Shown one piece after another: positions 433 through 20,047 of a stretch of 23,403 bases of DNA. How positions within the stretch are numbered: the first letter of the stretch is position 1; each line of letters opens with the position of its first letter. The notes under the pieces are model-generated. The model was not told the DNA's origin and did not search any database. It worked only from the letters and a program-made list of their open reading frames with translations. Position numbers and translations under genes: made by a program. This DNA is from a virus: positions 1 to 23,403 of IMG/VR virus record IMGVR_UViG_3300008217_000101. One strand, written 5' to 3'.

Positions 433-2874
433 TTACTTTAGTACCAGAGTAGTCGTTCCATCATGGGGCATATTTGAATTGTATAGTAAGAACCCATCGT
501 TTTCCCAACCAGAAGGGAATGCTGTAACTTCAAAAACGACAGTAGGATAGGTACACACACCTACTTGATCACACTTAGTTGTTGTGGCACTATCAAGAGC
601 GGGAACAAATCCTGTAGCAGCAGTTCCATCAGAGTCATTAGTATTATTACCAGCAGCAACAGTTGTAGCAGGAAGCCCCGTATGTAAAGCTGCCCAAGAT
701 CTGAACTTACTAGAATCTCTATTAGAGGAGGGGAAAGAGCAAGCTTTAACTGAATCTGAATTCCAACCAGCCCATTGTTCACCTTGCTCTTGGTAGGGGT
801 CTGGGCCAACCCAACCCACATTAATTTCAAACCATCCTGCCCCTTTTGTTATCCAAATCCCGTCCGTACCACCTGATTCAAAGTCCCTGGTTGAGTTTCT
901 ACCAAAGCCTCCTTGTGACAACGCAACGCAATTAGATAAAGCAGCTTTCACACAATAGTTAGAATATCCAGTAGGAAGGGAGAAACTAAATCTCTTCTTC
1001 ACCCAGTACATCATTAGAGGAGATGGATCACCATCAGCACCTCCAGTAGAGCCTTTTCCAATACCAGTTCCAAAGGAATTAGTAAAGATAGCTTCATCTA
1101 AAGAAGCCCCAGCCTCTTGAAAGTCTAGTGTACTATCCGTAGACATATTTCGGTTAATAGTATACTTAAAGTTCATCCAATCATTTTTATGCAGACCAGC
1201 CACGTCTTCGGTGCCGTCTAAATACTGTGACCATGTAGACCAATCCCACTCCGGATTCGCTGGTACATTGGCGTATGACATCCCAACGATACCATTTCCT
1301 AACCAATCACTATCACCTGAATAGGCTGCGGTAATAGCTCCTTCTGGTCCCCACTTTGTTCCACCCCAGATGTAACCACCCCCTACAGGTCTGGGCACTA
1401 AGGGAGGTGCAGGAGGATCTCCTGTGCCCCCTCCTGTCCCCAGAGCAGCGGTGATGGCACCGTGGATGTGATCGTCCAACTCTCTCTTGCCCACCGCAGG
1501 GTTAGCGAGAGACAGCCCAGGGAGAGCAGCAGCAATCCCCGCTCTCTCATCATAGGTTAGCTCAGTAGTTCTAAAGAAAGGTCTAATATCCACTAAATGA
1601 GATGAGGGAATAGTTCCTGCTTGAGCAGCAGTAACGACCACATAAGCTAACGGGAGAACGGTCTGCCCCACTAACCTAAAATCATTCGTCGCCAGATCAT
1701 TAGCAAGAAGAGGAGCTAAGTTAAGAATATCATCTGGGGCAGGGAAAGAACCTGTTATTGTAGTACCATCTTTCAGTAATACCCCACCCTCATTACTAGC
1801 AATATCAGCTTTGGATGGAAGCATATAAGCGTCCGCAGTTGTGGGAGAGACATTATTCTTAACTATCGTAGCATACTCTCCCGTAGTGTTTGTATTAAAG
1901 TTTAATCCCAGCCCCGCTCCTACGAGGATTCCAAGTTTAGCAGTAGTAGTGGTAGCCACCCCACCATTACTAATAATTTTAGAACTTCCTTGGTCTATAG
2001 GTTTTGTATACAAGAAAATGAGGTCAATTCTCTGGGAAGTACCTCCGATTAATTGTGTAGCACCATTTCCATCAACATAGAAAAAGTCCTCGTCGCTGAA
2101 GTCTGGAACCGTTAGCTCCAAAGCTTCTGGAACATCCACTACAGCAGTCCTAGCTACACCCCTCCACCTCTTCGTAAATTCGGTAGCCAAAGGTTGATCA
2201 TATGCAGTATTATTTAATGTAAAAGTAAATATATTATTAAGAGCATCGTATACCTTCTCATGATCTACTAAAGGAAATCCAGTATAACTTAAATTATCAT
2301 TAAGGTTTGTTGAGGTAACAGTAGAACCAGTATTGACATACTGCCCTAAGCCCACCTTATACACAGCATAATCAGAGAATTGTTCAAACAAACCATTAAG
2401 GTGTAATGCGTTTGCACCCGCTGTAGAAAATATTTTATCTACCGCACTCCGTACCGCAGCAGGATTCCGCATAATCCAAGTAGTCCCCTCACCTTGGTAG
2501 TTGACACCAGCATTCAAAGCGGGTTGGCTAAGTGGTTCTGTTAGTGTAGCAGCATCGTTAATCCTTGCTGTAAACCTACCTGGGTTGACCGTTATTTTAG
2601 ACCCCGCAACACTAGGTTTTAAATCACTAAAGTTGGCTCTAGTAACATTAGCAAAGCTAGTGCCTTCCGAACCAGCACCTTGTCCACCACCACCACCCAT
2701 CATACTCTCTGATCCACCACCTGTAGCTAGATTTTCTACCTGATCTTTTAACCATAGGCAGTTCTCCTCCAGTTGTTGTACAGGAATATTATCAACTTCC
2801 CAGTAGTAAGGGTCATTAGCCTTATACTTCCTAACGGGAGCCGTAAAAATAAAGTTGCTATCGAAGAATGTCAT
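433..2874 (-). CDS. Fibre/virion structural protein with W-E-x-D-N-I-P anchor
   Basis: An 813-residue protein. Its ATG overlaps the previous gene's stop (TAATG). Residues 13-48 contain an anchor-like motif (YYWEVDNIPVQQLEEN) that closely matches residues 24-57 of the preceding beta-helix protein. I take this as a common baseplate or fibre attachment peptide; similar D-N-[IL]-P motifs recur in marine T4-like phage structural proteins. A Gly-rich linker (about 52-70) follows, then a long beta-rich region. Near residue 460 there is an E-L-D-D-H-I-H-G motif and a Pro/Gly linker containing GDPPAPP. The Trp- and Gly-rich C-terminal ~300 residues begin around GGGYIWGG and have scattered Cys. No catalytic signature was recognised. 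The C-terminal part may be a receptor-binding head, but that is inference from domain order. Confidence 0.8.
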   Translation of the reverse strand: MTFFDSNFIFTAPVRKYKANDPYYWEVDNIPVQQLEENCLWLKDQVENLATGGGSESMMGGGGGQGAGSEGTSFANVTRANFSDLKPSVAGSKITVNPGRFTARINDAATLTEPLSQPALNAGVNYQGEGTTWIMRNPAAVRSAVDKIFSTAGANALHLNGLFEQFSDYAVYKVGLGQYVNTGSTVTSTNLNDNLSYTGFPLVDHEKVYDALNNIFTFTLNNTAYDQPLATEFTKRWRGVARTAVVDVPEALELTVPDFSDEDFFYVDGNGATQLIGGTSQRIDLIFLYTKPIDQGSSKIISNGGVATTTTAKLGILVGAGLGLNFNTNTTGEYATIVKNNVSPTTADAYMLPSKADIASNEGGVLLKDGTTITGSFPAPDDILNLAPLLANDLATNDFRLVGQTVLPLAYVVVTAAQAGTIPSSHLVDIRPFFRTTELTYDERAGIAAALPGLSLANPAVGKRELDDHIHGAITAALGTGGGTGDPPAPPLVPRPVGGGYIWGGTKWGPEGAITAAYSGDSDWLGNGIVGMSYANVPANPEWDWSTWSQYLDGTEDVAGLHKNDWMNFKYTINRNMSTDSTLDFQEAGASLDEAIFTNSFGTGIGKGSTGGADGDPSPLMMYWVKKRFSFSLPTGYSNYCVKAALSNCVALSQGGFGRNSTRDFESGGTDGIWITKGAGWFEINVGWVGPDPYQEQGEQWAGWNSDSVKACSFPSSNRDSSKFRSWAALHTGLPATTVAAGNNTNDSDGTAATGFVPALDSATTTKCDQVGVCTYPTVVFEVTAFPSGWENDGFLLYNSNMPHDGTTTLVLK

Positions 2875-5800
2875 TAGTCTAGTTTATTCAAATCAAATTC
2901 GCTTGCTGACAGGAATCCTTTTCCTGCTAAATCAGTCTCCGACTGTGCCCCTTCTCCAGCGAAAGAGGTAGTTGAAGTTTTCATGGTAACTAATTTGGGC
3001 CTACCAGCAGTACCTAGTGTAGCATTTTTAGCGTTAGCAAAAACAGCTATAGCGGACTCATCTAGTATAACCCTACTGTCGTAATCTTGAGGAAGGAGAT
3101 CCTTGGCATAGAAGAAGTTAGACTCTTTCCAATGTTTAAAGTACGGTTTGAAATATCCAATGTCATCACATCCGTCTCTTTCTGGGATATCATCATCAGT
3201 AGCCTTTCCTAGTGCCGCACCTCTACCACAATCTTTATCACCTAAAGGTATTGCTGTAAATGCCACAGCCGCAGTATAATTTCGCCAATCCTTAGCTTCA
3301 CCATATGCAGAATCACCGAAGTAAGCTGATGCCGTCAGAGAAGAAAGACTAATAGCACCCTGAATACCGCTCGGAGAAGTAGGTCCTGCCCCATAAACAC
3401 TATAAATATCTGGACCACTTGAGGTAGTTAGGAAGATGGAAGAACACGAACCCGACATATTATACCCTTGAGCTATAGTTTGGTAGATAATCCCCGTTTC
3501 TCCACTTGGCTGATTATTATAAACCAAATACTTAGCGAATTGTTTAGGAGCGAAGTAGAGCCTAAAGGCTCCAAAGTTCTGTCCATCTGAGTGAGTATTT
3601 CCTGGCGTACCAGAAGAACCAAAGGAGTCCAGAACACTCAGAGTACTTGTAAAGAGAGTGCTATCAGGAACACCAGCCGAAGTACATCCTTTTCCATCGT
3701 TGGGACCCCCATCTACCACATACACAGCCGAGGGACCATTATATCCCACCAACGGAGGGAAGTAACCACTCACAGAACCATAACTCATGTCAAGCTTAGA
3801 AGTAGAATCAATATTCCAAATTCTTAACTGTTCACATCCTTGGGGGTCCCCCGTGGAATCCTGATAATTGTAATACAAGGCAGAAGTATTATTCCAACCA
3901 GCGGGGAAGTTAACATTCCTAACATTAACCCTACTTCCTTTCATAGAGCGCACACACATACCCCCCTTAGAGAGAGTTGCTATATCAGTAGCCTCGACTG
4001 CTAAGGGAAAAGTTTGATCGTCTGTCGCTTTTCTTGCCGCTACAACGGAGCCAACCATATCATAGGGAACCTCTCCAGGACCCCCTGCTGCCGCAGTTTG
4101 TAGTTGGGGGTTGGGGTAGAACTGAATGGATCCATATGTATGCCATGCAGAGGTTTCATAGGTGGAGTAGTTTGCACTTAAAACTAAACCAGAGGCAACC
4201 CAAGCGTCCGCATCTCCAGTCACAACTTCATCGGCAGCGGACTTGGCCCATTGTCCATTAAAATCTCCACAGTCCTCCATGTTGATAACAGAGTTATTGT
4301 TAGCGACCAAGCAAGCCCTACTTGATTGTAAGTCTACCTTAGTTTGGTTCTGCTGAACCGTAAGATCCCATTGTTCATTATCAATAAATCCATATTCGTC
4401 TTTAGGAGGACAAATATCCAAAACTGAATCATTATCAACTAAGACATTCACACCAGCCCTACTAATCAGAGTAGGTCCGTGTACTTTTAAATTGGACCCA
4501 TTATTAACATAGGCATTAGCAGTATAGATTTGGTCTGGGTAATCATCAGGACCATCTAACCAAGTGAACTTTTCATCTCCACCTACGAGCCTACAGGTAG
4601 AATTATCCTTAACAAGAAGACTAGCTCCATAGTTAGCATTAGAGGTTCCTCCTCTCCCCTTGGTTCCATCAGTAGGTATCGCTCCATTATTTCCACCAGC
4701 ACCAAAACTAGTACCAGTTTGGGCCTGAATTCTAGCATAGGTTAAATGCGCCAAAGAATTATTCTCTAAAATAATGGCAGGAATAGATAAGAGAGTATCA
4801 GTTTGTGCTGGAGAAGCTCCACGGTTTCTCTTATACTTACATCGAGATAGTCCCGCAGCATCAACAAGTCTAGGGTGCGTGTACTTAGAGTTATTTAATG
4901 CAAGGTGCTGTCCATTAGTATCCATCATCACCATTCCTGGAGCATCCTCCCACTCGTAGTACTCCCCTGTATTATTCTGGGGGCTGTTGGCGTTTCCTCT
5001 TTGCTCCGCAGGTACTAAAGTTTTCTCTACAATATTAGGAGAGTTTTTTGCATAAACTAGGTGGGAGTTTTTTAGATCAACCCCTAATGTTTGAGTGTGG
5101 TCTACATATAACTCATCTATTAAAATATCAGAGTTAGTAGCCTCTAACCCGACAGGATGTAACCAAATATCCATAGCTCCATCTAAATCCAATTTAGAGC
5201 TATTCATTAACAAGCCTCTATTTGAATTTTCAAATAGCTGTAGAGAGGTCATTGATTGTGAGTCCGTCCCTGTAAGCCGCTTGTCTCCTCCTGTAAGGAT
5301 GGAGTTATACATCACCATTCCTCTGTCGTTTCTAGTGGATGCGAAGGCTGCATTAGCACCACTAGCTGCGTACTCTCCAACAGAACTCAGGACTACATTG
5401 GAATTGAATAAGTTGAATCCGACTCCCTTAATAGTAGTATCCCTATCATATCCATACCCTAAATTAGAGCTTAGTGCATAATTTCTGTATGCCCAAGCAC
5501 CTCTACTTAAGATGACATTACTATTTACTAGATTAAATCCTGTTTCATAACACCGCATCGCAGCACAATGCTCTAAGACTACCTCAGAGTTATTAATATT
5601 AATACCGTGTCTAGTGGTGTACTTAGTTGGAACAGAAACACCCAAAGCACCATCTACAGCAAAGTTTCTGATATAGATTGGACCCCCACAGTTATTAACC
5701 TCAATTTTACTTAACCTATTACCATAAAACTCTCCAACTAAACCTACTCCTTCATCAGTACCATACGAACCTACTTTATCTCCGTCATAATCACGCCTCT

Positions 5801-6671
5801 TCGTAGGGTTATCCTCAGTTATTTCATTTGTAACAGATGAGATATCAAAAGCACTAATACTTAAATCATTATCGGCCCCATAATTAAGTAGTGGGAAAAC
5901 CTCCCCGACTCCTGTTACCGCATCTGAGTGATATAAACTTGCGGTCATTTTAGCTGTTTTAATCCACTCATCGAAGGCTCTAACCTCATGGACCATCTGC
6001 CCTAAGATGATAGTATTATCCTCCCATCGTGGATCGTCAGGGGTTGCTGCGATAGCAGTACTGATGCCTAAGCAGGAGGTATCAGTAAGAGTATTCCTTA
6101 AATCGGCAGAAGATACTTCAGTTATATATACATCGGTGTTAGTTCCCGCTGTATATCCAGCAGCAGCCCCCTCACCAACGGTACGAGCCATCGAGGATAG
6201 AGCCATATCCTCACTCTCCAATCCTTGACCTGAATTAATGTGAGCATAGTTCCTATTCACAATCTCTAATGCACCACTCCCCGTAAAGTGAACATTATTT
6301 AGAACTAATTCTCCCAAATCTCCATAGCTTCCTACCTCAATTCTAACAGGATACCTAATGATATCAGGAAGAGCGTCTAACGCCCCACTTAAATTAAGGA
6401 AAATGTTGGGATTATCAACATAAGCTTGGGTTCCTAGAGCATCAGCCGAGACAGAGAAGACTACACCACTTACTTGAGGACTTCCTGAAGTAGGCCAGCC
6501 AGCCTTCTCCCATAAGTAATAGGTTCTTTCCTCTAAATCGTAGAGGGGAATATTATCTTGCTCCCAGTTATAGAAGGAACTAGTGTCAAACTTTTCTACC
6601 CCTGGAGTCCAACTATGAAGAATCTTATTATCTCCACCCTCTACATAAATATCATTTTTATTGAATCCCAT
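2874..6671 (-). CDS. Large beta-helix tail fibre/spike protein
   Basis: A 1265-residue protein beginning one base after the previous stop. The N-terminus carries the same anchor as the next gene (YNWEQDNIPLYDLEERT at about residues 34-50). From roughly residue 310 to 560 there are repeated short turns such as GFNLVNSNVILSRG, with regular N-N-S/N-S-N ladders and hydrophobic triplets, typical of a right-handed parallel beta-helix. Phage proteins of this fold are trimeric tailspikes or depolymerases, but pectate-lyase, endosialidase or endorhamnosidase active-site motifs cannot be identified by eye. The Asn/Ser-rich, beta-rich character continues past residue 800. The C-terminal third is less repetitive and includes a Cys/Asp-rich stretch near residue 1170. 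Likely role: adhesin or polysaccharide-binding spike on the baseplate rim. Enzymatic activity is possible but unsupported. Confidence 0.82.
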   Translation of the reverse strand: MGFNKNDIYVEGGDNKILHSWTPGVEKFDTSSFYNWEQDNIPLYDLEERTYYLWEKAGWPTSGSPQVSGVVFSVSADALGTQAYVDNPNIFLNLSGALDALPDIIRYPVRIEVGSYGDLGELVLNNVHFTGSGALEIVNRNYAHINSGQGLESEDMALSSMARTVGEGAAAGYTAGTNTDVYITEVSSADLRNTLTDTSCLGISTAIAATPDDPRWEDNTIILGQMVHEVRAFDEWIKTAKMTASLYHSDAVTGVGEVFPLLNYGADNDLSISAFDISSVTNEITEDNPTKRRDYDGDKVGSYGTDEGVGLVGEFYGNRLSKIEVNNCGGPIYIRNFAVDGALGVSVPTKYTTRHGININNSEVVLEHCAAMRCYETGFNLVNSNVILSRGAWAYRNYALSSNLGYGYDRDTTIKGVGFNLFNSNVVLSSVGEYAASGANAAFASTRNDRGMVMYNSILTGGDKRLTGTDSQSMTSLQLFENSNRGLLMNSSKLDLDGAMDIWLHPVGLEATNSDILIDELYVDHTQTLGVDLKNSHLVYAKNSPNIVEKTLVPAEQRGNANSPQNNTGEYYEWEDAPGMVMMDTNGQHLALNNSKYTHPRLVDAAGLSRCKYKRNRGASPAQTDTLLSIPAIILENNSLAHLTYARIQAQTGTSFGAGGNNGAIPTDGTKGRGGTSNANYGASLLVKDNSTCRLVGGDEKFTWLDGPDDYPDQIYTANAYVNNGSNLKVHGPTLISRAGVNVLVDNDSVLDICPPKDEYGFIDNEQWDLTVQQNQTKVDLQSSRACLVANNNSVINMEDCGDFNGQWAKSAADEVVTGDADAWVASGLVLSANYSTYETSAWHTYGSIQFYPNPQLQTAAAGGPGEVPYDMVGSVVAARKATDDQTFPLAVEATDIATLSKGGMCVRSMKGSRVNVRNVNFPAGWNNTSALYYNYQDSTGDPQGCEQLRIWNIDSTSKLDMSYGSVSGYFPPLVGYNGPSAVYVVDGGPNDGKGCTSAGVPDSTLFTSTLSVLDSFGSSGTPGNTHSDGQNFGAFRLYFAPKQFAKYLVYNNQPSGETGIIYQTIAQGYNMSGSCSSIFLTTSSGPDIYSVYGAGPTSPSGIQGAISLSSLTASAYFGDSAYGEAKDWRNYTAAVAFTAIPLGDKDCGRGAALGKATDDDIPERDGCDDIGYFKPYFKHWKESNFFYAKDLLPQDYDSRVILDESAIAVFANAKNATLGTAGRPKLVTMKTSTTSFAGEGAQSETDLAGKGFLSASEFDLNKLD

Positions 6672-6672
6672 A

Positions 6673-7248
6673 TTAAAAACTTAGCGTCCACTTAAATATT
6701 AGAGAAAATTCCTCTTTTTTAGTTATTTCATTAAATACCCTGTATGCAACTAACATTGGCCTAGGATCTCCATCATACCCTGTTGGATTTTTCATCAAGA
6801 GCCCAATTTCATTTAGAGTCATTTCATTGGTACTATTAGTATCTAGGGTTATAATATATTGAACCGAATTTGGCGCAGTCCTTCGAATCATCTCTTGAGG
6901 CATCACTATCATATCTTCTGGGACTAAGACTCCGTTCTTTATTTGATCGTGCGACTCTATCCTCATAGAAGAAGTTCCATATTGCAGTTCAGTTAATTCA
7001 GTTACAAGAGTATAGGAAGAGACATTCACAGCCTCAGCTAACCCATCCATTCCTAATTGGGCATATTTTATCTGATAATCTAAGATAGAGTTAGAACCAA
7101 TACCTCCAAAGAGCAACGCTAAACCTACACCCATTCCAGAGACAATCATATTGTTGTCTGCGAAATGGAGTTCTTCCGTTCCATCTGCGTATTTTTTCCA
7201 AACCTCTAGGTATCCTACGGGGCTCAGTTCTCCTAGTACATTACTCAT
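6673..7248 (-). CDS. Stand-alone copy of the shared baseplate-proximal fibre domain
   Basis: A 191-residue protein that is almost entirely one domain, recurring at the N-terminus of the sulfatase-bearing gene upstream and in split form in the 392-residue gene before it. Shared landmarks: an opening beta segment with an N-x-I/V-V motif (YLEVWKKYADGTEEL, then NNMIVSG), an I-K-Y-A-Q-L-G segment, a mid-domain strand (QYIITLD), the motif NEIGLL, a D-x-x-P-R-P-M-L-V-A-Y-R strand and the C-terminal FKWTLSF. I do not recognise a named family with certainty. Arrangement and sharing suggest an attachment or adaptor domain that docks fibres to the baseplate; this copy may occupy an equivalent site or cap without a distal enzyme. 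It has a good ribosome site (AAAGGA overlapping the preceding TAA, 11 bases before ATG). Confidence 0.8.
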   Translation of the reverse strand: MSNVLGELSPVGYLEVWKKYADGTEELHFADNNMIVSGMGVGLALLFGGIGSNSILDYQIKYAQLGMDGLAEAVNVSSYTLVTELTELQYGTSSMRIESHDQIKNGVLVPEDMIVMPQEMIRRTAPNSVQYIITLDTNSTNEMTLNEIGLLMKNPTGYDGDPRPMLVAYRVFNEITKKEEFSLIFKWTLSF

Positions 7249-7259
7249 ATTAGTATATA

Positions 7260-7265
7260 TCCTTT
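7260..7265 (-). promoter_or_regulatory. Ribosome binding site of the 191-residue adaptor gene
   Basis: AAAGGA on the minus strand overlaps the TAA stop of the sulfatase gene and lies 11 bases before the ATG at 7248. It is one of the clearer Shine-Dalgarno sites in the block and sits in one of the few non-overlapping junctions. Confidence 0.6.
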
Positions 7266-10200
7266 ATACCTGTCCATTAGTTATAGTTGTTGGTGGATCT
7301 GTTCTATAAGTTAGGTATTGCTGCAAACTAGCGTTTACTGCGCTCCATATCCTACATAGTCTCCACCAATGATTATCGTTATCTATGTGAACCCCTACTC
7401 CCTGCTCCGCTATGGCTAAGGCAATCATTTGCTCAAGCAAATCATCTCCTCCCCCACCAGCAGTATCTTGCATAGAACCTAGGAAGATGCTACTCAATTC
7501 ATAAGGGTCTACTGGAGTATTATCATACTCTTTCAGATGGTACAACTCTGAATAGTCCGATCCACTTGTAGAACGGAGAACTTTCCAGGTCCCCGCACTA
7601 GCGTCTGGGATAGTACCGTAGGATACACCCCCAACTATCTCACTAGCCCCTGGAACCACATAGTTTCCAAATAATTCTCCTGTAGATCGGACTACCATAC
7701 CTCTTCTTCTTACAGTAGGAAAGTGGGCAACCCCACTTATAGAATTTGTTGGAGATGCGGGGCTATAATCAGACCACGGTTGGCTATCTGGTTCATCTGT
7801 ATCATAAACAAGTCCGCTTCCACTATGGGATCCCCTGTAGGTCCAACTAATATTCCCCTGACTTCCACCCAAAGGAGTGTAATACTCAAAGAAAGAATAC
7901 TCTTTAGAGTGTGAAAGAGAGCCACTCAGAACAGGAAGAAAGGAGCTTCCCTCGTATTTTGTGTAGTCTCCTGGGCGTATCTCTAAAGCATCTTTGTTTA
8001 CACGGGCAATATCGGCTATAGTAGCATAGATATCTATAGCATCTACCATAGCACTAGTCGCATTACCAACCCCCTTGGCAGACTCTGGGATAAAGGAAGC
8101 ACTTGCAAACATAGGAACTCTAACCCCTCTTTCGTAGGTTGTTCCCTTCATGCCCCCTCCTGGTCTGTCATTATACTCATTTCCTCCACCCCGTCTATAC
8201 TGTAGTTGTCCGTAGGCAGGGTCAGTAGCCTTCCTCCATCTTGAATAAATCTCTCCAATCCCACTAACTGCACCCAGTCCTCCATAGGTGCCAGCAGGGG
8301 AGACTGCTGCCTGTGCATAGTCCATATAATCGTTCCAAACACCATTATCAGTTCCGTTATCACCCATCCATATAAACAGGGTTCTATTTTTTCTAGTTGC
8401 ATCTAGGCTGCTTAGGAAGCCACTCATGCAATAATCCATGCTCTCTATCATCGCATTTTGGTTAACCCATACTGCGCTTGCTGCATCAGTATAAGACATA
8501 TCCACACCTCCGTCTGCTGGGAGGTTCATCAACATTTGGATATGATTCTCATTATACTTATCAGTATAAACTGTACTACTTGGGGGGTAGGTGTAGGGAG
8601 TATGAGCGGTATTTAAGGGAAGATACATAAAGAAAGGTTGGGGAGCAGAGTTGAACACCGCACTAGCTTCCGCAAAAGTTTTAACTGTAGCATACGAAGA
8701 CACATCTCCCTGAACATAGGGTATAGCGTTGCCGTGGCCTCCGATACCATTTGATTCAGGAAATGTGGTATACCCTGAGTCAGAAACCGTTACAATATCC
8801 CCATTGATATTCATAAAGTAATTGATATATCCCATATTAGAATCATTAATAGGGAAATCATCATCCCAGTTATCTACACTAGAGGCTACACTAGGTCTTT
8901 CATTTTTGTGTCCTGGAATTGGAGGATTGTTTAGATTCTGGAACATAGCTCGGTAATCATCCCACTTCCCTACAGCAGAAACATGTGCCCAACCAGTACC
9001 AGAGAAAGAAGTAAACTCACCCTCAGCCTCTGCTGATTCTTTTTCATAATAAGTAGAGAATTGGTTCCACTCACACAGATGCCACTTACCTATCATCGAA
9101 CTGTAGTAACCATGCTCTCTCAGTAGTTGAGGAAGAATCTTGAAGTTATTAACTCCCCAAGTTGAGATTCCTCCAGTCTGAGACAGAATGATATTAGAGA
9201 GGTTTTTAAGAACACCAGGACCTGCGGGATTATCTGGATCAGTAGTCCATATATCATGCTCGACTCCTAATGCTTCTAAACCTCCCCTCAACCTTAGTGC
9301 TTTATTTGTAGCTACGGTGGCAACTCCATGACCCCAATATCCTGTACTTCCTGCTTTCCCTCCATCAAAGTTATCAAACTTTTTACTAGAGAAGGCATTC
9401 TTTCCTGTTAGGATATTAGCTCTTGTAGGGCTGCACATAGTATTAACCCTAGCATCGGTAAACATAATTCCCCCCTCCATCATCGCACTCAATTGAGGGG
9501 TATTGGGATACAGCGGACCATGCTGATTCGGAGCCCACATATCTATCTCAGTAGGGTTCCCAGAGGTAATATTATCTTTATCATACATTCCTAGCTGATC
9601 AATGCCTATATCATCAGCCATGATAAATACCACATTAAAACCCTGACCTGTAGCGTAGTCTACAATATGCGTCTCTGAGTTCTGTGGTCCTAAGAATTGC
9701 TGATACCAACTATCCTTCTCAATTATCACCTGTAGTGCCCAATTTACTCTGTCTCTATCGCAACGAGCTACATCTTGGAGATCCCAATCAAGGTAGTGGC
9801 TTACCGCTCCTGATACAAATTCACTAGCAACTGTTTTATTTTTACTAGGAGAGTAGTTATTAACAAAGGATGATGTAGTAGCGCACACAGCTAGAACATT
9901 CTTTAGAGTATGTCCTTGCATTATATCAAACATATCATTTGATAGTTGAGATGGTGTTCTATATTCGGCCCCGTTTCCTGCTGATACAGATGAGATATCA
10001 TAACCTGATAGGTCTAGGTTTACTGCTGGCTCTTCAATATTAGGTATCTCTGTATAGGTATTATCCCCTACATTATATAATTTAAAGAAGGGGACATAAT
10101 CTGTACTAGTAGAAGAGGTGGAAGATCCAACATAACTCATGTGAGAGAACACAGAGGAGTTATCGAGATGCCCCCAATATACTCCAGGCATATTTGTAGC

Positions 10201-11793
10201 ATCACCTATAGAACTTGTAGAGGACGCTTGGAATGTGGGGGACCACCACCGTTTTGCATACAAAGGAACCTCTCTCCATTGGTATAGCTCCTTTAGAGAA
10301 GGTATCCCTGACCAGTAAATTCCTCCAGTCCCCGTAACTACATCGGCTTTAACTAACAATAGCGAACTTAAAGCTCCCATCCCACTAAGACTACTACTGA
10401 TAAAAGCGGAAGTATCGTAGTAGTCTGTACTGGAGGACATTAGAGGTGCGCCATCATCCACAGAAGAGAGAACACTTCCAAACATACCCACCTGTTTAGG
10501 AATTCCAGCAAGTTTAAAATCGAAAGTACTTAGAGTATATGGATACCAACTTTCCCAATCCATAATCCCTTCTCGATTAGCTACAGCGATAGCTCTAGTG
10601 GAGCAAGCCTCATAGGAAGCAGAAGCCATAGCCACTCCTCCAACCGCAGACCCCTCTGGTCCATAAGCTAAATAGCCAGCTAGTGTACTCCCAAACCCAT
10701 TCCCCGCTACAATAACATTACTGGCATTAAGGTTCCAATTTGCTGTTACTAACTCCCCTCTCTCCTTTGCGAATTGAATAGAACTCACAGCGTCTGTAAA
10801 GCTATTTGTTAATCCATTAGGAAGTCTTAAGGGACCAGTAGAGGAAGGAACTAGCCCTGCACTACTATCAAAAGAAGAAGTGAATAGAGGGGTAGACGAG
10901 GTAGCTGTAGGATAATCATAATCAAACGCTACGACTGAAAAGCCGTTCTGTAGGAGGCGTATAAGATAGGAATTTTCAACATTTTGTCTAAGGTTGTCAG
11001 GGATGGTGCTTGTTTTGGTGATTGGCTTATTACTACTTGTTACATTAGGGAAATAGCACACCCAAGCATTCCCGTTAGGATTTTCAAAGGGACTTTTATA
11101 GAAGTTATAGGTATCTCCTATCTCGGTAGGAGTAAGGTTAACTTGATTTGCAATATTGATCGCTAATACCCACTCAATTTGAAGTAGGAAATCACTATTC
11201 TTTGCAAGAGGAGTAGAAATACCCATACCATCTTCAAACCCAAACGACTTATAGGCACCTAACTGTAACTTTCGTGGTGTTAGGGGGTCTTTACTTAGGT
11301 TGTAAAATAATCCAGCCTCACTTATATTGTGACCATTAAGTGTATTTTCATCAATAATCACAGTAAAGCAAACCGTGCTATCACTCATTTTGGTAACATG
11401 AGCATTATCGGGTTTCCTTAAATCAATGAAAGCGTTCTCTTTACTACTCACACCTATTTGATTAATAGGATCCTTGTAAATAAGCTGATCAAATTCTTCT
11501 AAGTGTAAGTTTGTGTGGTCCCCATAGTCTGGGATAGTGGCAGGAGAAGACAACTCGTACAAGTACTTTGTTGCCCAATTATCTTGGGCACTAGTTCCTA
11601 GCTGGAGCCACCCTAGGGTTATATCCTCTGGGGTGTAGGAGGGATCATACACTCCCTCCATTATATCAGCAAGAAGAGTTGCAAACCCTATGGTAATGAT
11701 ATTATCGTCATCTACTACCACCTCATCAGGTCTGTTATCAACAAACTTCTTGGTAATAGTTACATGCCCACTAATTTTAGGCTTGATATTCAT
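7264..11793 (-). CDS. Tail fibre protein with complete type I sulfatase domain and esterase-like domain
   Basis: I choose the ATG at 11793, overlapping the previous TGA (ATGA), giving 1509 residues; an upstream in-frame TTG at 11811 lies inside the previous gene and has no own ribosome site. Residues 1-213 are the adaptor domain shared with the two flanking genes. Residues ~240-640 resemble an alpha/beta hydrolase: strand FSVVAFDYDYP, helix DAVSSIQFAK, then NVIVAGNGFGSTLAGYLAY, but the G-x-S-x-G nucleophile is G-N-G-F-G with Gly366. Residues ~715-1440 are a full sulfatase: metal-site DD at 727-728 (MADDIG), C-S-P-T-R with Cys787 as formylglycine precursor and Arg791, GKWHL with Lys903 and His905, His1064 (AHTPY), Asp1145-Asn1146 (GDNG), Lys1216 (KGTTYERGVRVP), and the C-terminal ELYHL...P-x-x-P-Y-E-L. 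Known chemistry: sulfate ester hydrolysis with Ca2+. Inferred role: desulfating a host surface glycan during adsorption. Confidence 0.92.
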   Translation of the reverse strand: MNIKPKISGHVTITKKFVDNRPDEVVVDDDNIITIGFATLLADIMEGVYDPSYTPEDITLGWLQLGTSAQDNWATKYLYELSSPATIPDYGDHTNLHLEEFDQLIYKDPINQIGVSSKENAFIDLRKPDNAHVTKMSDSTVCFTVIIDENTLNGHNISEAGLFYNLSKDPLTPRKLQLGAYKSFGFEDGMGISTPLAKNSDFLLQIEWVLAINIANQVNLTPTEIGDTYNFYKSPFENPNGNAWVCYFPNVTSSNKPITKTSTIPDNLRQNVENSYLIRLLQNGFSVVAFDYDYPTATSSTPLFTSSFDSSAGLVPSSTGPLRLPNGLTNSFTDAVSSIQFAKERGELVTANWNLNASNVIVAGNGFGSTLAGYLAYGPEGSAVGGVAMASASYEACSTRAIAVANREGIMDWESWYPYTLSTFDFKLAGIPKQVGMFGSVLSSVDDGAPLMSSSTDYYDTSAFISSSLSGMGALSSLLLVKADVVTGTGGIYWSGIPSLKELYQWREVPLYAKRWWSPTFQASSTSSIGDATNMPGVYWGHLDNSSVFSHMSYVGSSTSSTSTDYVPFFKLYNVGDNTYTEIPNIEEPAVNLDLSGYDISSVSAGNGAEYRTPSQLSNDMFDIMQGHTLKNVLAVCATTSSFVNNYSPSKNKTVASEFVSGAVSHYLDWDLQDVARCDRDRVNWALQVIIEKDSWYQQFLGPQNSETHIVDYATGQGFNVVFIMADDIGIDQLGMYDKDNITSGNPTEIDMWAPNQHGPLYPNTPQLSAMMEGGIMFTDARVNTMCSPTRANILTGKNAFSSKKFDNFDGGKAGSTGYWGHGVATVATNKALRLRGGLEALGVEHDIWTTDPDNPAGPGVLKNLSNIILSQTGGISTWGVNNFKILPQLLREHGYYSSMIGKWHLCEWNQFSTYYEKESAEAEGEFTSFSGTGWAHVSAVGKWDDYRAMFQNLNNPPIPGHKNERPSVASSVDNWDDDFPINDSNMGYINYFMNINGDIVTVSDSGYTTFPESNGIGGHGNAIPYVQGDVSSYATVKTFAEASAVFNSAPQPFFMYLPLNTAHTPYTYPPSSTVYTDKYNENHIQMLMNLPADGGVDMSYTDAASAVWVNQNAMIESMDYCMSGFLSSLDATRKNRTLFIWMGDNGTDNGVWNDYMDYAQAAVSPAGTYGGLGAVSGIGEIYSRWRKATDPAYGQLQYRRGGGNEYNDRPGGGMKGTTYERGVRVPMFASASFIPESAKGVGNATSAMVDAIDIYATIADIARVNKDALEIRPGDYTKYEGSSFLPVLSGSLSHSKEYSFFEYYTPLGGSQGNISWTYRGSHSGSGLVYDTDEPDSQPWSDYSPASPTNSISGVAHFPTVRRRGMVVRSTGELFGNYVVPGASEIVGGVSYGTIPDASAGTWKVLRSTSGSDYSELYHLKEYDNTPVDPYELSSIFLGSMQDTAGGGGDDLLEQMIALAIAEQGVGVHIDNDNHWWRLCRIWSAVNASLQQYLTYRTDPPTTITNGQV

Positions 11794-12968
11794 ACGAAAT
11801 ATAATCTCCAAATTAGAGTAAGATCCCCAGGACGGTTACACCCTGGTCCCCCCACAGGAGGATCTCCTGGCCTATCGCCAGTAGTACAAATATTATCTAG
11901 TAAACTCTTTTTAGAAAACAACTTATACCTTTTCTCATTTGTTATAGGCTCAAATTCGAAGGGTGGATTATTATATTTCTGAGCTTTACATAGGTCCATA
12001 GCCCACAATCCTATATTGTAAATTCCTCCATATAGATTACAAGCACCTACATCCCCACTCCCAATTATAACCTTGTATGCTATTTCTCCTGTATTAGAAG
12101 CATGGAGAGCATGATTTATAGCTGTATTTGCAGATACGGTTAACCCAGACCACCCTGCGGCAAGGGCTGTGTCAGTTGTAGACGATCCTACAAAGTTTAC
12201 AAATCCACTAGTATCCATAGAGCTTACTTGATTAAATAAACTATTGTAACTTGAAGCATAGATTACATCTGAAAATCCTGCTGCTCCAATCTGAACACCA
12301 GCATCACTACTAACGGCCCAAAAAGGTGTGCCTCCCGTCCCACTCCCTGCGGGATAACATCCTAGAAGTTGAGACATTCCAGGAACTAATATAGCAGAAG
12401 TAGAGGATAGATCAGACGCATAGGCTAGGGTATTCAAATTATGCCCTATATCTGAAATACCTGAACAAAGACCACTTATAGAGGAAGGGGGGTCAAACGA
12501 AGCCTCATTTGGATGTGTAACTTCCCCAGACACAAGAGCGTTCAACTCTAGTTGCGTCTGCCTGGGAGTAACAAAGGAGGGAAGAAGATTTCCCGCATCT
12601 GTGGGCATATAAGAAGACACCTCGGGGTCCCCTGGCGCAGGTGGACCCCCACTCTGAATGACAACAACTCTTACTAAAGGATCATTATTGTCAACACTAT
12701 TAAAAGCTCCATACCCTTTTCTGGCTGTAAGCTCATGAGCATGACGCTGATATCCTTTACTATCCTTCCCAAAAGAAATAGCTTGGATAGTATAATTAGA
12801 AGTATCTAAAATGGAGGACAGGTCAGGAATACCAGAAAGACTAGAGTGTGCAGTCATGATGTCTACTAACACCTCTCCCGCACCATCTACAACCGTATTC
12901 TGGCCTTCTATTAAAAGCTCCTCGTCCGAAGTTCCATAGCACTTATATACTTCTAGCTTACCTCTCAT
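11790..12968 (-). CDS. Fibre protein: shared adaptor domain split by a ~200-residue insert
   Basis: A 392-residue protein whose ATG overlaps the previous TGA (ATGA) behind an AGAGGG ribosome site. The N-terminal ~105 residues (KLEVYKCYGTSDEEL, then NTVVDGAGEVLVDIM) match the start of the adaptor domain in the next two genes. The C-terminal ~95 residues carry the rest: AYKVIIG, YNIGLW, a K-L-F-S strand and the terminal LTLIWRLYF. About 200 Ser/Gly/Ala-rich residues with Pro/Gly linkers (GGPPAPGDPE near 107; GDPPVGGPGC near 368) sit between. The insert includes VPGMSQLLGCYPAGSG and GVQIGAAGFSDVIYASS, which look alpha/beta-like, but I cannot assign a fold or enzyme. Likely role: receptor-binding or accessory tail protein displayed from a loop of the adaptor. 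Ten Cys residues, clustered towards the C-terminus, are unusual for such a protein. Confidence 0.75.
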   Translation of the reverse strand: MRGKLEVYKCYGTSDEELLIEGQNTVVDGAGEVLVDIMTAHSSLSGIPDLSSILDTSNYTIQAISFGKDSKGYQRHAHELTARKGYGAFNSVDNNDPLVRVVVIQSGGPPAPGDPEVSSYMPTDAGNLLPSFVTPRQTQLELNALVSGEVTHPNEASFDPPSSISGLCSGISDIGHNLNTLAYASDLSSTSAILVPGMSQLLGCYPAGSGTGGTPFWAVSSDAGVQIGAAGFSDVIYASSYNSLFNQVSSMDTSGFVNFVGSSTTDTALAAGWSGLTVSANTAINHALHASNTGEIAYKVIIGSGDVGACNLYGGIYNIGLWAMDLCKAQKYNNPPFEFEPITNEKRYKLFSKKSLLDNICTTGDRPGDPPVGGPGCNRPGDLTLIWRLYFV

Positions 12969-15900
12969 GGTGATCCCTCTTTAAAATCTACTAGGTTATA
13001 AATCCCTACTGGGCTACCGTCATTTCCTAGGTAACTAGCTCTGGTATCAGGATCCCATCTTGGGTGATAACGATAGTTCAATCTACTTCCTCCACTTGCT
13101 TCAAATATTCCTGAACTATCAGCGGCTATTCGCGTAGCAAAGCCTCGACCTAAACTACTTGCTGCTAATGAATTCATATATTTGAAGATCCCCCTGTAGT
13201 CATCTAACCCAGTTCTAGTTATATCCTTAGAGTGGAGATTTCCTACATCATCCGTGTAGGATATCGTAAACTCATCTAAAGCAGTTTGGGCTAGAGTTTG
13301 ATCTATTATAGTAACCTCTGGAATAATATACTTACTATCTCCTGCATAAGGTGCTTCAAACAAAACCTCTACCACATAATGCTGATTAGTCCTATGGAGA
13401 AATGCTGGCGTATATTCTTTAGGGTAAGATTTAAAATTGCTAGATAACCTAGTCTGTTTATTATGAGTATTAAACTTAAGGGCAATAGTTTGAAAGTCTG
13501 TCTCGGCTAAGTTGGCTATTAATGTAGGAGAAGCTTTGGGTACTTCAAATACAGTAGACATGGCTTCTACATTATCATAAGCCTCCGCTATAGGGGAGAG
13601 TAATACTGAACTTACAGGATAAGCTACCCACTCCCCATTATGATACTTGTTATCATAATTCCAGGTATTCTTAAGCTCCCAGGACCAGAAGTACCCGTCT
13701 TCTGGAATCGTATGTATCCATACCCACACTTTATTTTGATAGGTGGTTTGCCCATTCATTCTAGCTATCTTCATTTTAAAATCGAAGTCGTGATCAGGAA
13801 GGAGCAAGTTAGCTGACACAGAACTGTTTCCATATCCCGATAAATCGAACCTAATCCTGGGGACTATATCAGGTTCATAGTTGGTGGCATCCACCTCTAG
13901 AGTTGCTTCTTTGGCTAGGGTTGAAATTAGCCCTGGAGTCTCGTCCAAATATTTTACTGATGGTCTATAAACTTTAAAGGAAGGTCTTGGGCTAGGAAGA
14001 TCCTGTGGTACTTCCGTTCTATAACAAAACTCTACACCACTCAAAGCAAAGGGATATCTGTATTCTCCTCCATCCGTTGCTCGGACTCCAATGACCAAAC
14101 TACTAGCCTCATCTTGAACTGAACTAGCACCCGAATCATACAGAACGGATGATGTTACCCCTCCGAACGAGGGCTGAACAAAGGAGGAAGCAACCATTGT
14201 ACTAGAAACACCGTTCTTCGTGAAATTACCATTGTACAATAATGGTCCGTAAATATGGGAGAAGACTGTCCTGCCCCCGTGATCATAGCCTCCGCTTACT
14301 AAGTGAGGGGCTGTACCATGTCTTCCAAATTCTCTAGCGTACCGATTATATACCTCCTGTACCCCAGAGCCAAACGAATAGTCAGAATATGTATCCCAAC
14401 TACTTACTCCATTGAATGCACTATTCGCTAGAGATTGGATGGGGTCTAACCAAGTAGTTGAAGCTTGCCAGTCTCCAGAGACATCTTTATAATGATTATA
14501 CGCATCTCGCAACGCATCCTTTTCCTTGGTTTGGTGCATAATCCTTATTATTTCAGGACATTCTTCTCTTCTGATATATAAAAGACACTTACCATCTTGT
14601 AATTGATCGTTAACATTTTTTAGACCTCTCCAATGAAAAGTATTAGAAGTATCTACTCCAAAAAACTGTCTCTCAGAGGCACTAGTTTCACAATAGGACC
14701 AGACAGGATGTAAGGCACTTACCCCTGACGGAAATGGAGTTTGAAACTCACACCCAGAATAGTTATAACCCAGAAGTAAGGCTCCTGCACTAACAGCAGG
14801 ATTTAAATCAGGGGTGGAAGGTTCATAGCTATTAGGCATATCAAATCCAGTTCTAGAATAATACCCGTTTCTAGGAAGAGACATGTGAAATGTTCTTCTT
14901 CGGAGATTATTTCTAGGAGCAGAGTTCACTTTAGGAATACCTCCTGCCCATGCTGGGGCACCATTTCCATCCATTATCTCGTCTGCAACCGTGTCCACAT
15001 ACTGACGAGAAATATTAGTAGAAGATAATCCATGACCCAACCCTACCTGCTCTCCCCAGTAGGTCATGTTTACTCCTGAAAGATCCCAAGCATTTACCAC
15101 AGTACTTGATGTGAATACATCAAGGGGAGTATACATAGGAATGGGGCATGCAAATAAGGTAGCCTGAAGGTACTCAAAAGCCTCTAAAAACATCTTAACC
15201 CTGGGGATGGCGTGGGCTGGGATAGTTTTATTTAATGCCTTAAGGGCTAGTACAATCCCTAAAGCAGTATCGGGGTTTGCGGATTTCGTGGTCTGAGTGT
15301 AGCTGTTAGAGCTTAAATGAAGATCAAAATGGGAAGATTTTGCATTCCACAAAGGCAGAACACTAGTTCTTTTATTTGATATATCATCTAATATTTCTGT
15401 AAAGTTAACGGGAAGTTCAAAACCAGAAGTGAAAAGGACAAATCGGTTTCCTAGGCTAATGTCATCTGTGCTAGAAACGGAGATAGACTTAATATAATTT
15501 AGTGTAGAGGTTGTTAAATCACTATCTACACTAAAAAGCTGTAGTTGTTCTTCAAGCGTCCTTAATAGTGGCTGACTTACTTGTACTTTCTCATAATACC
15601 TAATCTCCTCATAAGGAGGAATGGGGTAAGCTCTTCCTCTATAATTAAAAGTAAACTCTGGGTCTGACCCTGGAGTAGGAAATAGTTTGTCACCTAAGAG
15701 GAAGTCGGTGGGGTGTTCCTGCCATAAGACTTTTAGTATTTTATCCACACACCGTCTTATATTAGAATCAGCATCAGTCGTAGATCGGTCTGCAAGAGTA
15801 GTCCCAGGAAGCGTAACTCCATACTCTAAAGCAAGCTCTTCTGTCCAAAGGTCAAAGGGGTTGTCCTTATACCCCACTTGATTAAAGTAAGAAGTTCCAG

Positions 15901-17140
15901 TACTGAGTAAGTAGTAAATTAAATTAGGAAGATACGATTCATATAACTCATACATTACTCCTGATAAATTGAAGTCGTTACTCTCTCCAAATAATGAATT
16001 TAAAAGAAGTTGGGTAGCCCACTTTGTCCCCTTAGATTTATAAATTCTAACTGCGTTTCTTATTTGGGATCGCCACCTTGCGGGGTCTGCCCCAAGTAAT
16101 TCCCATCCAATCAAATCAGCTAAGTGGGGGAGATACTCTTGAGGGCAGTTATCTATGTCGTATAAAGACTCCAGCTTATCAATAGGAGAGTTTACATCTT
16201 GGTATGCATACCCAAGAACTCGTAATAATTTACTAAATGGACCCGCAGCAACCTCTTGAGGAGTAAAGGTATCATATACTACATAATCTTCAAATGCATC
16301 CTTTACCTTAAAGTCTGTAGCGTCTGCATATAGAGGAGAATATAGAACTTCTACAAGTGTCTTGAGTCTGTCTAGATTCTGTGTACCACTCGTATAGGTG
16401 CTAGAGGATACTCCTGATACAAAATCAGTAGGAACTACTTCTGCTCTCTGAAAAGCAGGTAGGTCTAAATAGTTTTTCCATAGGTACTCTTCAAAACCTT
16501 TGATTCCTTCGGTTATATACAGACTACTGCCTATAAATAAGTCCGTTAAGCTATCTGAAACAAACGAAGAAGGGTCATAAGTGCCTCCTGTGGGGGCACT
16601 AGTATTTAAGAAATAGAACCACCCCAGAGAGTTGATTAAATACTCATGGAGTCCCGAAGCTCCTACCACCCCATAAGCAGTATACAAATTAGAACTAGCC
16701 CCCGCTGGAGTTGTGACACTTGACACTTCCCCATTAAGAGTTAGAGCAGGAAGTAAGTGAGTGTCTAAATATGTTTTCCACTCTGCACTTGTATTAAATG
16801 CTTCAAGTTGAAATTCTAAAGGATCTAGAATATCTCTTTCAAAATAGAATGGTGTAATCCTGGTGTTTTCGTTCTGTTTTATAAAGAATGGTGCGATCCC
16901 AGAAAGGGTATTTATGGCAGAGAAGTTAGGGGTGGCTGAGATGGGGAGAATTGTGGAGAGGTTATTAGCCGCTTGAAGGTGCGTCTTCAACAGAAGATCC
17001 AACGGATCTAACTCCATTCCACTAAGATCAAAATCTTTAATGGAATAGACAGTAGGTACTATTTTTTCTAGGGCATCTCCATAATTTCTTTTGAAGTATG
17101 TCTTAGTAGTTGGATCAAAAGCTTTGAAGTTAACTCCCAT
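12965..17140 (-). CDS. Baseplate wedge protein, tail protein I / gp7-like, very long
   Basis: A 1391-residue protein starting at an ATG that overlaps the gp6-like gene's TAA (TAATG), preceded by a strong AAAGGAG. At about residues 320-385 there is a P2 tail-protein-I-type signature: CPQEYLPHLADLIGWELL, then a W-R-x-x-I-R-x-A-V-R-I-Y helix and K-S-K-G-T leading to LLLNSLFG. This domain sits in wedge proteins linking gp6/J to the fibres. Around 735-780 there is an Arg-rich stretch and RNGYYSRTGFDMPNSY, which resembles conserved segments of marine myovirus wedge proteins. The last ~400 residues are beta-rich with many Trp and Tyr and may be fibre-docking or carbohydrate-contacting. It is far longer than P2 gpI and exceeds T4 gp7. 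Position directly after gp6/J and before the fibres fits a wedge role; the C-terminal function is unknown. Confidence 0.82.
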   Translation of the reverse strand: MGVNFKAFDPTTKTYFKRNYGDALEKIVPTVYSIKDFDLSGMELDPLDLLLKTHLQAANNLSTILPISATPNFSAINTLSGIAPFFIKQNENTRITPFYFERDILDPLEFQLEAFNTSAEWKTYLDTHLLPALTLNGEVSSVTTPAGASSNLYTAYGVVGASGLHEYLINSLGWFYFLNTSAPTGGTYDPSSFVSDSLTDLFIGSSLYITEGIKGFEEYLWKNYLDLPAFQRAEVVPTDFVSGVSSSTYTSGTQNLDRLKTLVEVLYSPLYADATDFKVKDAFEDYVVYDTFTPQEVAAGPFSKLLRVLGYAYQDVNSPIDKLESLYDIDNCPQEYLPHLADLIGWELLGADPARWRSQIRNAVRIYKSKGTKWATQLLLNSLFGESNDFNLSGVMYELYESYLPNLIYYLLSTGTSYFNQVGYKDNPFDLWTEELALEYGVTLPGTTLADRSTTDADSNIRRCVDKILKVLWQEHPTDFLLGDKLFPTPGSDPEFTFNYRGRAYPIPPYEEIRYYEKVQVSQPLLRTLEEQLQLFSVDSDLTTSTLNYIKSISVSSTDDISLGNRFVLFTSGFELPVNFTEILDDISNKRTSVLPLWNAKSSHFDLHLSSNSYTQTTKSANPDTALGIVLALKALNKTIPAHAIPRVKMFLEAFEYLQATLFACPIPMYTPLDVFTSSTVVNAWDLSGVNMTYWGEQVGLGHGLSSTNISRQYVDTVADEIMDGNGAPAWAGGIPKVNSAPRNNLRRRTFHMSLPRNGYYSRTGFDMPNSYEPSTPDLNPAVSAGALLLGYNYSGCEFQTPFPSGVSALHPVWSYCETSASERQFFGVDTSNTFHWRGLKNVNDQLQDGKCLLYIRREECPEIIRIMHQTKEKDALRDAYNHYKDVSGDWQASTTWLDPIQSLANSAFNGVSSWDTYSDYSFGSGVQEVYNRYAREFGRHGTAPHLVSGGYDHGGRTVFSHIYGPLLYNGNFTKNGVSSTMVASSFVQPSFGGVTSSVLYDSGASSVQDEASSLVIGVRATDGGEYRYPFALSGVEFCYRTEVPQDLPSPRPSFKVYRPSVKYLDETPGLISTLAKEATLEVDATNYEPDIVPRIRFDLSGYGNSSVSANLLLPDHDFDFKMKIARMNGQTTYQNKVWVWIHTIPEDGYFWSWELKNTWNYDNKYHNGEWVAYPVSSVLLSPIAEAYDNVEAMSTVFEVPKASPTLIANLAETDFQTIALKFNTHNKQTRLSSNFKSYPKEYTPAFLHRTNQHYVVEVLFEAPYAGDSKYIIPEVTIIDQTLAQTALDEFTISYTDDVGNLHSKDITRTGLDDYRGIFKYMNSLAASSLGRGFATRIAADSSGIFEASGGSRLNYRYHPRWDPDTRASYLGNDGSPVGIYNLVDFKEGSP

Positions 17141-18762
17141 TAGACTCCTTTAATATTTATAATAACATTGTTCAACTGAATAACTTCATTAAATTCTACA
17201 TGAACATCCGAAGATAGGTTGTCTACTTCCGCAAATCTTACACTTGGCACATCTTCAAATACTGACCTTGTAAAATCTGTTAAAATAAATGGATCTCCAA
17301 AATCAATATTATCATTATTGAAATATTTTAGGATTGATCCTCTAGTAGAAGCTTTAATCTCTTCCTCTCTGGGAAGTAAGTTTCTGTCTACTGAAATAGT
17401 CGTAACTAGATCCAAAGTTCTTACAATACCATCTACAATTATAATTTCATCAGTAAGCATCTTCTTCTCATTCAAGAACTCTAGCATCTCCATCTTAAAC
17501 GAGGTGCTGGCTTGCTGTAGTTGAACATTACTTGCTTTTTCCAAAACATAAACATCAATAATATTTGCCGAACTATAAGCTTTTCTAACGACAGCAGTAA
17601 CCTTCCCTACAGTACCGTAGCTAGAAATAAATTTAGCGGCTCTTGCCACATAATCTTCTAGGGTTACAAGCCTGTCCTGGGACTTGAACCAAAGAGGTGC
17701 ATATTTCTTAGCGTGTGCTACACTCTCTGCGTCCGCTCCTCCTGTAGCTAAAGAAGTATTCTCTACTGTAGCTTCCATTGTATTCGCTGGATCTCCTTGA
17801 ATCTCGACGGTGGTTACAGCATTAATATAACTCTTTTGAATATTACCTCTAGTCCCTCCTCCGATTCTATAAGTAACTTCATAACCAGCACCGATGGGAG
17901 GGGAAATTCCAGCAACATTATCGCCAAATACGATAGTTCCTCCAAATGCGTCATTCAGATTAACCTGAAAAATCTTGTCAGTAGCTCCCGAAGCAAAATA
18001 AATACTCTCAACCTGGGTGAAAGCACCCGAAGCATTAGGAACACCAGGAGCGTCTACATACACAGAGACGCTGCCCTCAATGATAGGACTCTGAGTTAAG
18101 CTGATAGTCTTAATGCTGTCATATGTATTAAAAGTTCCTCTATCCACCACTAAAGATCCCTCTAATAAAGCTACATTAGTCCAAACCTTTCCAGCCGCTA
18201 AGTTAGACTCTTCAATATTTAAGTAAAAGGAGGAATCAGCAGTCGCGTCTGCTATCCGTCCCGCAACCACCTTATACATTGTGTATGTAACTAAGCCCCC
18301 ATCTTCAGGAGAAGTTACTGTAACCACCCTCTTCTGAGGAGATAAGGCTACCGTAGTCTCTGAAGGGGCTCCTGCGAGAGCGTTTGCTGTTTCTATTGTA
18401 CAATTTGCAGCAGCAGCCAAAGGACCTCTCATTCTTACTCCCACTAACTCAAGCAGCTTCTTTACATTTGTTCTATTTCGTGCTGTAGATATAAAACTTT
18501 CGTTAGCCAACATGTCAGCCTTCAATGATAAAACTGATCCCATATAAGCTATCACTTCAACAAGCATGATACCTAAGTCCGACTCCGAGAAGTTTTGATA
18601 ATCTAGTGGATAAACAGCTTTTACATACTCAATTATTGTACCTCTTAATGTTAGAAATTCCGTTGCTGAATAATCAATAAGGTTGCCTTTCCTAGCATCA
18701 GGAACAATGACATCCTTCATAAAATCTGTTTTTACTTCTCCCGTGAAATTTGATAAACTCAT
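17140..18762 (-). CDS. 6: Baseplate wedge protein gp6 / baseplate J-like
   Basis: A 540-residue protein whose ATG overlaps the gp25-like gene's TGA (ATGA), with GGAG ten bases upstream. Residues ~51-112 hold the conserved N-terminal signature of the gp6/J family: Q-N-F-S-E-S-D-L-G-I-M-L-V-E-V, then ADMLANESFISTARNRTNV and KKLLELVGV. The middle region (~180-330) is beta-rich with VFGDNVAG and a G-G-G-T-R-G-N-I motif, typical of the baseplate J core. The later region (YAPLWFKSQDRLVTLEDYVA, near 350) and the C-terminal TDEIIIVDGIVRTLDLVTTI complete the family layout. In T4 and P2 relatives this protein dimerises around the hub, forms the inner ring of the baseplate, and rearranges on contraction. 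Length and neighbours (gp25/W before, tail protein I after) fit. I see no damage. Confidence 0.92.
   Translation of the reverse strand: MSLSNFTGEVKTDFMKDVIVPDARKGNLIDYSATEFLTLRGTIIEYVKAVYPLDYQNFSESDLGIMLVEVIAYMGSVLSLKADMLANESFISTARNRTNVKKLLELVGVRMRGPLAAAANCTIETANALAGAPSETTVALSPQKRVVTVTSPEDGGLVTYTMYKVVAGRIADATADSSFYLNIEESNLAAGKVWTNVALLEGSLVVDRGTFNTYDSIKTISLTQSPIIEGSVSVYVDAPGVPNASGAFTQVESIYFASGATDKIFQVNLNDAFGGTIVFGDNVAGISPPIGAGYEVTYRIGGGTRGNIQKSYINAVTTVEIQGDPANTMEATVENTSLATGGADAESVAHAKKYAPLWFKSQDRLVTLEDYVARAAKFISSYGTVGKVTAVVRKAYSSANIIDVYVLEKASNVQLQQASTSFKMEMLEFLNEKKMLTDEIIIVDGIVRTLDLVTTISVDRNLLPREEEIKASTRGSILKYFNNDNIDFGDPFILTDFTRSVFEDVPSVRFAEVDNLSSDVHVEFNEVIQLNNVIINIKGV
17145..17151 (-). promoter_or_regulatory. 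Ribosome binding site of the gp7/I-like gene
   Basis: AAAGGAG on the minus strand, four bases before the ATG at 17140. It lies within the last codons of the gp6-like gene and is the strongest Shine-Dalgarno match among the visible starts, supporting high translation of the long wedge protein. Confidence 0.65.
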
Positions 18763-20044: not shown

Positions 20045-20047
20045 CTA
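20045..20047 (-). other. In-frame amber (TAG) codon inside the LamG domain
   Basis: The reading frame passes ...PYNYNR-TAG-IIGCENNGG... with the open frame continuing for 273 codons to a TAA. The residues on both sides form a continuous LamG strand pattern, so this stop interrupts rather than ends the domain. All ten other gene ends in the window use TAA or TGA. Confidence 0.85.

Follow-up and report, generated by a model that had tools for sequence, protein, structure and literature searches.

The C-terminal ~790 residues of a large baseplate fusion protein are confirmed here, by sequence comparison and structural modelling, as a predicted type I sulfatase domain with a full active site. The gene is likewise confirmed, from the predicted functions of its neighbors, to be part of a baseplate operon from a contractile-tailed phage. 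It lies on a 23,403-bp virus record from IMG/VR, itself a fragment, and we refer to this whole record as the window. The protein is probably a baseplate component of a T4-like phage that carries a formylglycine-dependent sulfatase at its C-terminus and desulfates a glycan on the host surface or in its surroundings. Sulfatases of this family and virion tail enzymes are each known; a combination of the two appears to be unreported.

The fusion gene is read from the minus strand and encodes three domains (within the sulfatase, domain numbering plus 715 gives the residue numbering from the ATG):

7264..11793, minus strand: sulfatase fusion gene (adaptor, middle domain, type I sulfatase), 1,509 aa from the ATG
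11110..11793, minus strand: N-terminal "adaptor" domain, by homology to the adjoining 191-aa protein and its orthologues
9649..11109, minus strand: middle domain, 487 aa, with no family match
7267..9648, minus strand: type I sulfatase domain, 794 aa, by Pfam, alignment and AlphaFold/Foldseek

An alternative TTG start at 11811 would lengthen the product to 1,515 aa (ORF 7264-11811, minus strand). The adaptor domain comprises the N-terminal ~228 residues and matches the adaptor proteins of two related contigs, L004 and L094 (3e-15 to 5e-7), and, weakly, phrog_5417. The first-pass annotation of this DNA had already recognized an N-terminal adaptor; the homology to the neighboring 191-aa protein makes the name a reasonable one, the role being read from position. 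The 487-aa domain between adaptor and sulfatase was absent from that annotation. It finds no family in Pfam, NCBIfam, PHROGs, PDB sequences or the viral scan, and is present in the window and one relative (L003) only. Its start resembles an alpha/beta-hydrolase, but the elbow reads G-N-G-F-G without a serine, and a hydrolase assignment is unsupported. The dN/dS values between the window and L003, 0.11 for the adaptor, 0.13 for the middle domain and 0.29 for the sulfatase (0.24 in its core), indicate purifying selection on the whole fusion, whose frame has been kept, with the sulfatase evolving faster than the remainder of the protein. Because the sulfatase follows structural domains in the same polypeptide, a signal peptide is not expected on it.

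Pfam finds one good family in the fusion protein, Sulfatase (PF00884; 5.3e-29, 101.9 bits against a curated cut-off of 25), and the sulfatases of the relatives score 87-107 bits against the same model. The PHROG match, phrog_19870 (2.7e-7, function unknown), is aligned over the C-x-P-x-R region. The motifs of the domain are located as follows, all but the last assigned by motif and alignment:

9610..9615, minus strand: Asp-Asp (D727, D728), predicted calcium ligands
9421..9435, minus strand: C-S-P-T-R, predicted formylglycine site (C787, R791)
9079..9090, minus strand: G-K-W-H (G902, K903, H905)
8596..8604, minus strand: H-T-P (H1064)
8353..8364, minus strand: G-D-N-G (G1144, D1145, N1146), with D1145 and N1146 predicted calcium ligands
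8113..8148, minus strand: K-G-T-T-Y-E-R-G-V-R-V-P (K1216)
7699..7710, minus strand: R-R-R-G, present in all 5 aligned phage sulfatases; 62 of the 63 bacterial sequences have a gap there

The active-site groups had all been placed in a single frame by the first-pass annotation, and every residue number it gave is exact when counted from the ATG at 11793. In the same numbering, ELYHL stands at residue 1416. The formylglycine motif, CSPTR in the window, is either CSPTR or CTPTR among the relatives and reads C-T-P-T-R in L003, L004, L093 and L094. Conservation was assessed in an alignment of 68 sulfatases, five from phages (the window and four relatives) and 63 from bacteria in the genome collection. 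In domain numbering, D12, D13, P74, R76, K188, H190, H349, D430 and N431 are invariant throughout, and C72 and K501 are each found in 67 of the 68. The R-R-R-G motif of the phage sulfatases might bind an anionic polymer.

A structure prediction had been proposed as a check on the sulfatase assignment, and the fold is not lacking. AlphaFold, run on the sulfatase domain with the 68-sequence alignment, returned a pTM of 0.77 with a confident core; confidence is limited to that core, as 318 of the 794 residues, mostly in phage-specific insertions, have a pLDDT below 50. Foldseek gave 169 PDB matches under 1e-3 for the model, and the best 50 of the 169 are all sulfatases. The top match is a Pseudomonas arylsulfatase (4cyr, a mutant entry; 2.5e-16), and gut mucin, carrageenan and human sulfatases are also among these 50; the TM scores of the best matches, normalized to the PDB targets, are 0.51-0.67. 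Family search, alignment and fold thus agree with the original claim of a type I sulfatase. The extent first given to it was 7474-9651; the conserved domain runs on past 7474 to the stop codon and occupies about 7267-9648.

The genes around the fusion gene are arranged as follows:

2874..6671, minus strand: conserved fiber-like protein, 1,265 aa, its role taken from position
6673..7248, minus strand: stand-alone adaptor relative, 191 aa (phrog_5417), kept in all relatives whose contig reaches it
11790..12968, minus strand: conserved protein, 392 aa, a weak relative of the adaptor family (0.004 against the 191-aa protein)
12965..17140, minus strand: Tail_P2_I-like baseplate protein, 1,391 aa
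17140..18762, minus strand: baseplate wedge protein, gp6/J-like
18759..19223, minus strand: gp25 baseplate wedge
19223..19948, minus strand: LamG (concanavalin-like) protein, which stops exactly where relatives run on into the sulfatase
20045..22273, minus strand: gp10-like wedge protein, one ORF with LamG in L003 and cut by an in-frame TAG in the window
22275..23378, minus strand: baseplate spike/hub-like protein, with a weak Phage_base_V match

The gp25, gp6/J-like wedge, Tail_P2_I and spike-like genes, together with a gene order shared by the relatives, bear out the baseplate-fiber operon that had been claimed for this region. The TAG of the window, at 20045-20047 on the minus strand, interrupts the gp10-like/LamG gene, leaving parts of 742 and 241 aa, and L003 has TTG (Leu) in its place. 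As the genes of some relatives end normally with TAG, the codon is taken to be a nonsense mutation or a sequence error, not a change of code. The type of phage can be read from a 63.7-kb relative, L104, which encodes a large terminase (TerL), a T4-type major head protein, a head maturation protease, a tail sheath and a tail tube, and is, judged by these genes, a T4-like contractile-tailed phage. Its TerL and head protein share only ~30-35% identity with those of known phages, among them phages of Flavobacterium and cyanobacteria. For the wedge protein of the window, the nearest match is in a 595-kb uncultured phage (27.6%), followed by those of cyanophages.

Scans of the viral collection found the same sulfatase clade, in homologous baseplate operons, in 11 further IMG/VR contigs, which need not be eleven phages: L094 and L095 are identical in the overlap of their fusion proteins, and the sulfatases of L102 and L103 were treated as identical by the tree. 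Two carriers are used. Fusion to the adaptor, which the first-pass annotation had suggested looking for in other phages, recurs in L003, L094 and L095. The protein of L003 is 80% identical to that of the window, with the same fusion and the same gene order; the fusions of L094 and L095 lack the middle domain, with the sulfatase directly following the adaptor. The other contigs carry the sulfatase on a gp10-like/LamG protein directly upstream of gp25 (L004, L093, L102, L103, L106, L108 and L109, and L104 in split form). The window and L003 have the gp10/LamG gene in its usual place, but without a sulfatase, and the LamG protein of the window ends "...YFKNIDL" exactly where that of L109 continues "...YFKNIDTELHEFNYDSGEGFN" into the sulfatase. 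The exactness of this junction and the existence of two carriers imply that the domain moved, or was lost and regained, as a unit between two parts of one baseplate operon. The split in L104 is due to a frameshift inside the sulfatase (10384-10387 of that contig), likely a sequence error because that contig's gene for the major head protein seems to be split as well.

In a tree of the 68 sulfatases, the five phage sequences form one clade with a support of 100 and a long stem, with no near relative among the sampled bacteria; the bacterial set was drawn from at most 80 loci matching the window domain, and a closer family may exist outside it. The phage domain is 20-27% identical to the aligned bacterial ones. 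Trees of the sulfatase and of the wedge protein recover the same three groups (the window with L003, L094, and the LamG type), a pattern more in keeping with long vertical inheritance than with recent capture. Four tblastn queries against 50,697 GenBank phage records, namely the sulfatase and N-terminal halves of the protein, its middle domain and the sulfatase of L094, gave no match. A generic bacterial sulfatase gave 33 hits in phage records; the three regions examined (A11a, MT835490 and MT835586) hold bacterial chromosomal genes and were treated as contamination. The first of these (L098; MG065691.1, Campylobacter phage A11a, marked UNVERIFIED) holds what is apparently enterobacterial chromosomal DNA with a sulfatase and genes for sugar transport and metabolism. 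Another candidate tail sulfatase, at 9701-11548 of contig L096, was rejected: it is an unfused arylsulfatase of bacterial type that lies next to a prophage and has a start resembling a signal peptide. It directly follows the tail/lysis module of the prophage, and may be host flank or a gene for lysogenic conversion.

A mechanism can be proposed from this organization. The N-terminal adaptor would anchor the fusion protein in the baseplate, as the stand-alone 191-aa neighbor presumably does. In the infected cell, before assembly, Cys787 would be converted to formylglycine by a formylglycine-generating enzyme (FGE) or anSME of the host. FGE (PF03781) was found neither on the 13 virus contigs, all of them fragments, nor on the 595-kb phage, and maturation would therefore depend on a host enzyme. 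On contact, the tail-borne enzyme may hydrolyze sulfate esters of the host capsule or exopolysaccharide, or of a surrounding sulfated polysaccharide. Desulfation could make the coat looser or unmask it, giving the tail access to its receptor, or allow the virion to move along sulfated slime. On balance, we favor the existence of a class of virion sulfatases in T4-like phages, conserved and largely vertical in descent, borne on either of two baseplate carriers and switched on by the host FGE, to which a sulfated glycan would present a barrier or a receptor.

The main rival to an active sulfatase is that the fold only binds a sulfated glycan, as a lectin-like receptor-binding domain whose Cys stays unmatured or which is otherwise inactive in the virion. 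Tail proteins often bind without cleaving, and the contigs without FGE and the phage-specific insertions of the domain both speak for such a role. A pure binder would, however, be expected to lose some catalytic residues, and the deeply diverged phage sulfatases, 40-44% identical to that of the window, keep every one of them, including the Lys and His that are dispensable for binding; we consider simple binding unlikely. The same residues bear on whether an active enzyme might attack another ester, a phosphonate or phosphodiester such as that of a phosphorylated surface polymer, in place of sulfate. Members of the superfamily are promiscuous, and the substrate cannot be read from the sequence. 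The residue set is nonetheless that of a sulfatase (Lys in GKWH, Asp-Asn in GDNG, Lys in KGTxYE), where phosphonate monoester hydrolases have Thr and Asp-His, and the nearest folds by Foldseek are aryl- and carbohydrate sulfatases, making a different ester an improbable target.

Sulfatase is named among viral auxiliary genes in a review (PMC10029852), and the domain might accordingly scavenge sulfate in the infected cell, or be a host gene caught by chance, rather than form part of the virion. Auxiliary metabolic genes are taken to be stand-alone and close to cellular homologues; in the window and the 11 other contigs, the sulfatase forms in-frame fusions with baseplate proteins of two kinds, encoded in tail operons, and it belongs to a phage-only clade set apart from the sampled bacterial sulfatases by a long stem, so that a metabolic role is very improbable. 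An assembly artifact joining a bacterial sulfatase to a phage contig could be suspected, since bacterial contamination appears to account for some sulfatase matches among deposited phage records. It is already refuted, with almost no probability left to it: the same fusion occurs in contigs from several samples, at identities from near-complete down to about 40%, and the genome scan found no close bacterial sulfatase (best 25-38%, over local stretches).

An active virion sulfatase would share features with several known systems. With type I sulfatases (PF00884; for example, Pseudomonas arylsulfatase 1hdh and mucin O-glycan sulfatase 7an1) the phage domain has in common the fold and the C-x-P-x-R, DD/DN, GKWH, HxP and KGxxYE motifs; it differs in its length, ~790 aa against ~500, its specific insertions and R-R-R-G motif, and its location C-terminal to phage structural domains. 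Virion tail enzymes (tailspike depolymerases, lyases and deacetylases) have the structural domain first and the catalytic domain last, are encoded in tail operons and are exchangeable modules, all of which holds for the phage sulfatase. Unlike the beta-helix depolymerases, however, it is a predicted sulfate-ester hydrolase with an alkaline phosphatase fold and a need for formylglycine maturation. Predicted viral structures matching the model below 1e-3 are giant-virus proteins only, and the sulfatases of Yasminevirus, Tetraselmis virus 1 and Satyrvirus are the only sulfatase-annotated viral proteins among these matches; they belong to eukaryotic viruses, are about 10-13% identical and are not known as tail proteins. 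The "FGE-sulfatase" tail proteins of diversity-generating retroelements resemble the phage protein in their tail setting and in the word sulfatase, but are not sulfatases; they use the fold of the sulfatase-modifying enzyme as a variable lectin (PMC12724379; PMC11318856). The window contig has no PF03781 match, which speaks against placing the fusion protein among these FGE/DGR lectin tail proteins.

In the open-licence literature, we found no type I sulfatase described from a phage tail; the phage papers examined there that mention sulfatase deal with FGE-fold proteins, with host genes or with lists of auxiliary genes. The tail enzymes known from phages cleave or deacetylate sugar chains, and removal of sulfate would, if true, add a new chemistry to the virion tip. 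Sulfated polysaccharides are common marine polymers, and no report of phages dealing with them was found in the same literature. Phage entry would also be tied to formylglycine modification by the host (FGE or anSME), a dependence testable through one host gene, and sulfatases acting on intact polymers would be useful tools. More than one origin of virion sulfatases is possible, judging by an unrelated phage, L111, with a Terminase_3-like terminase. It encodes a separate, strongly diverged sulfatase (551-2842; 763 aa, Pfam 2.6e-8, with no visible signal peptide) among structural-looking genes, with LamG and beta-helix-like neighbors.
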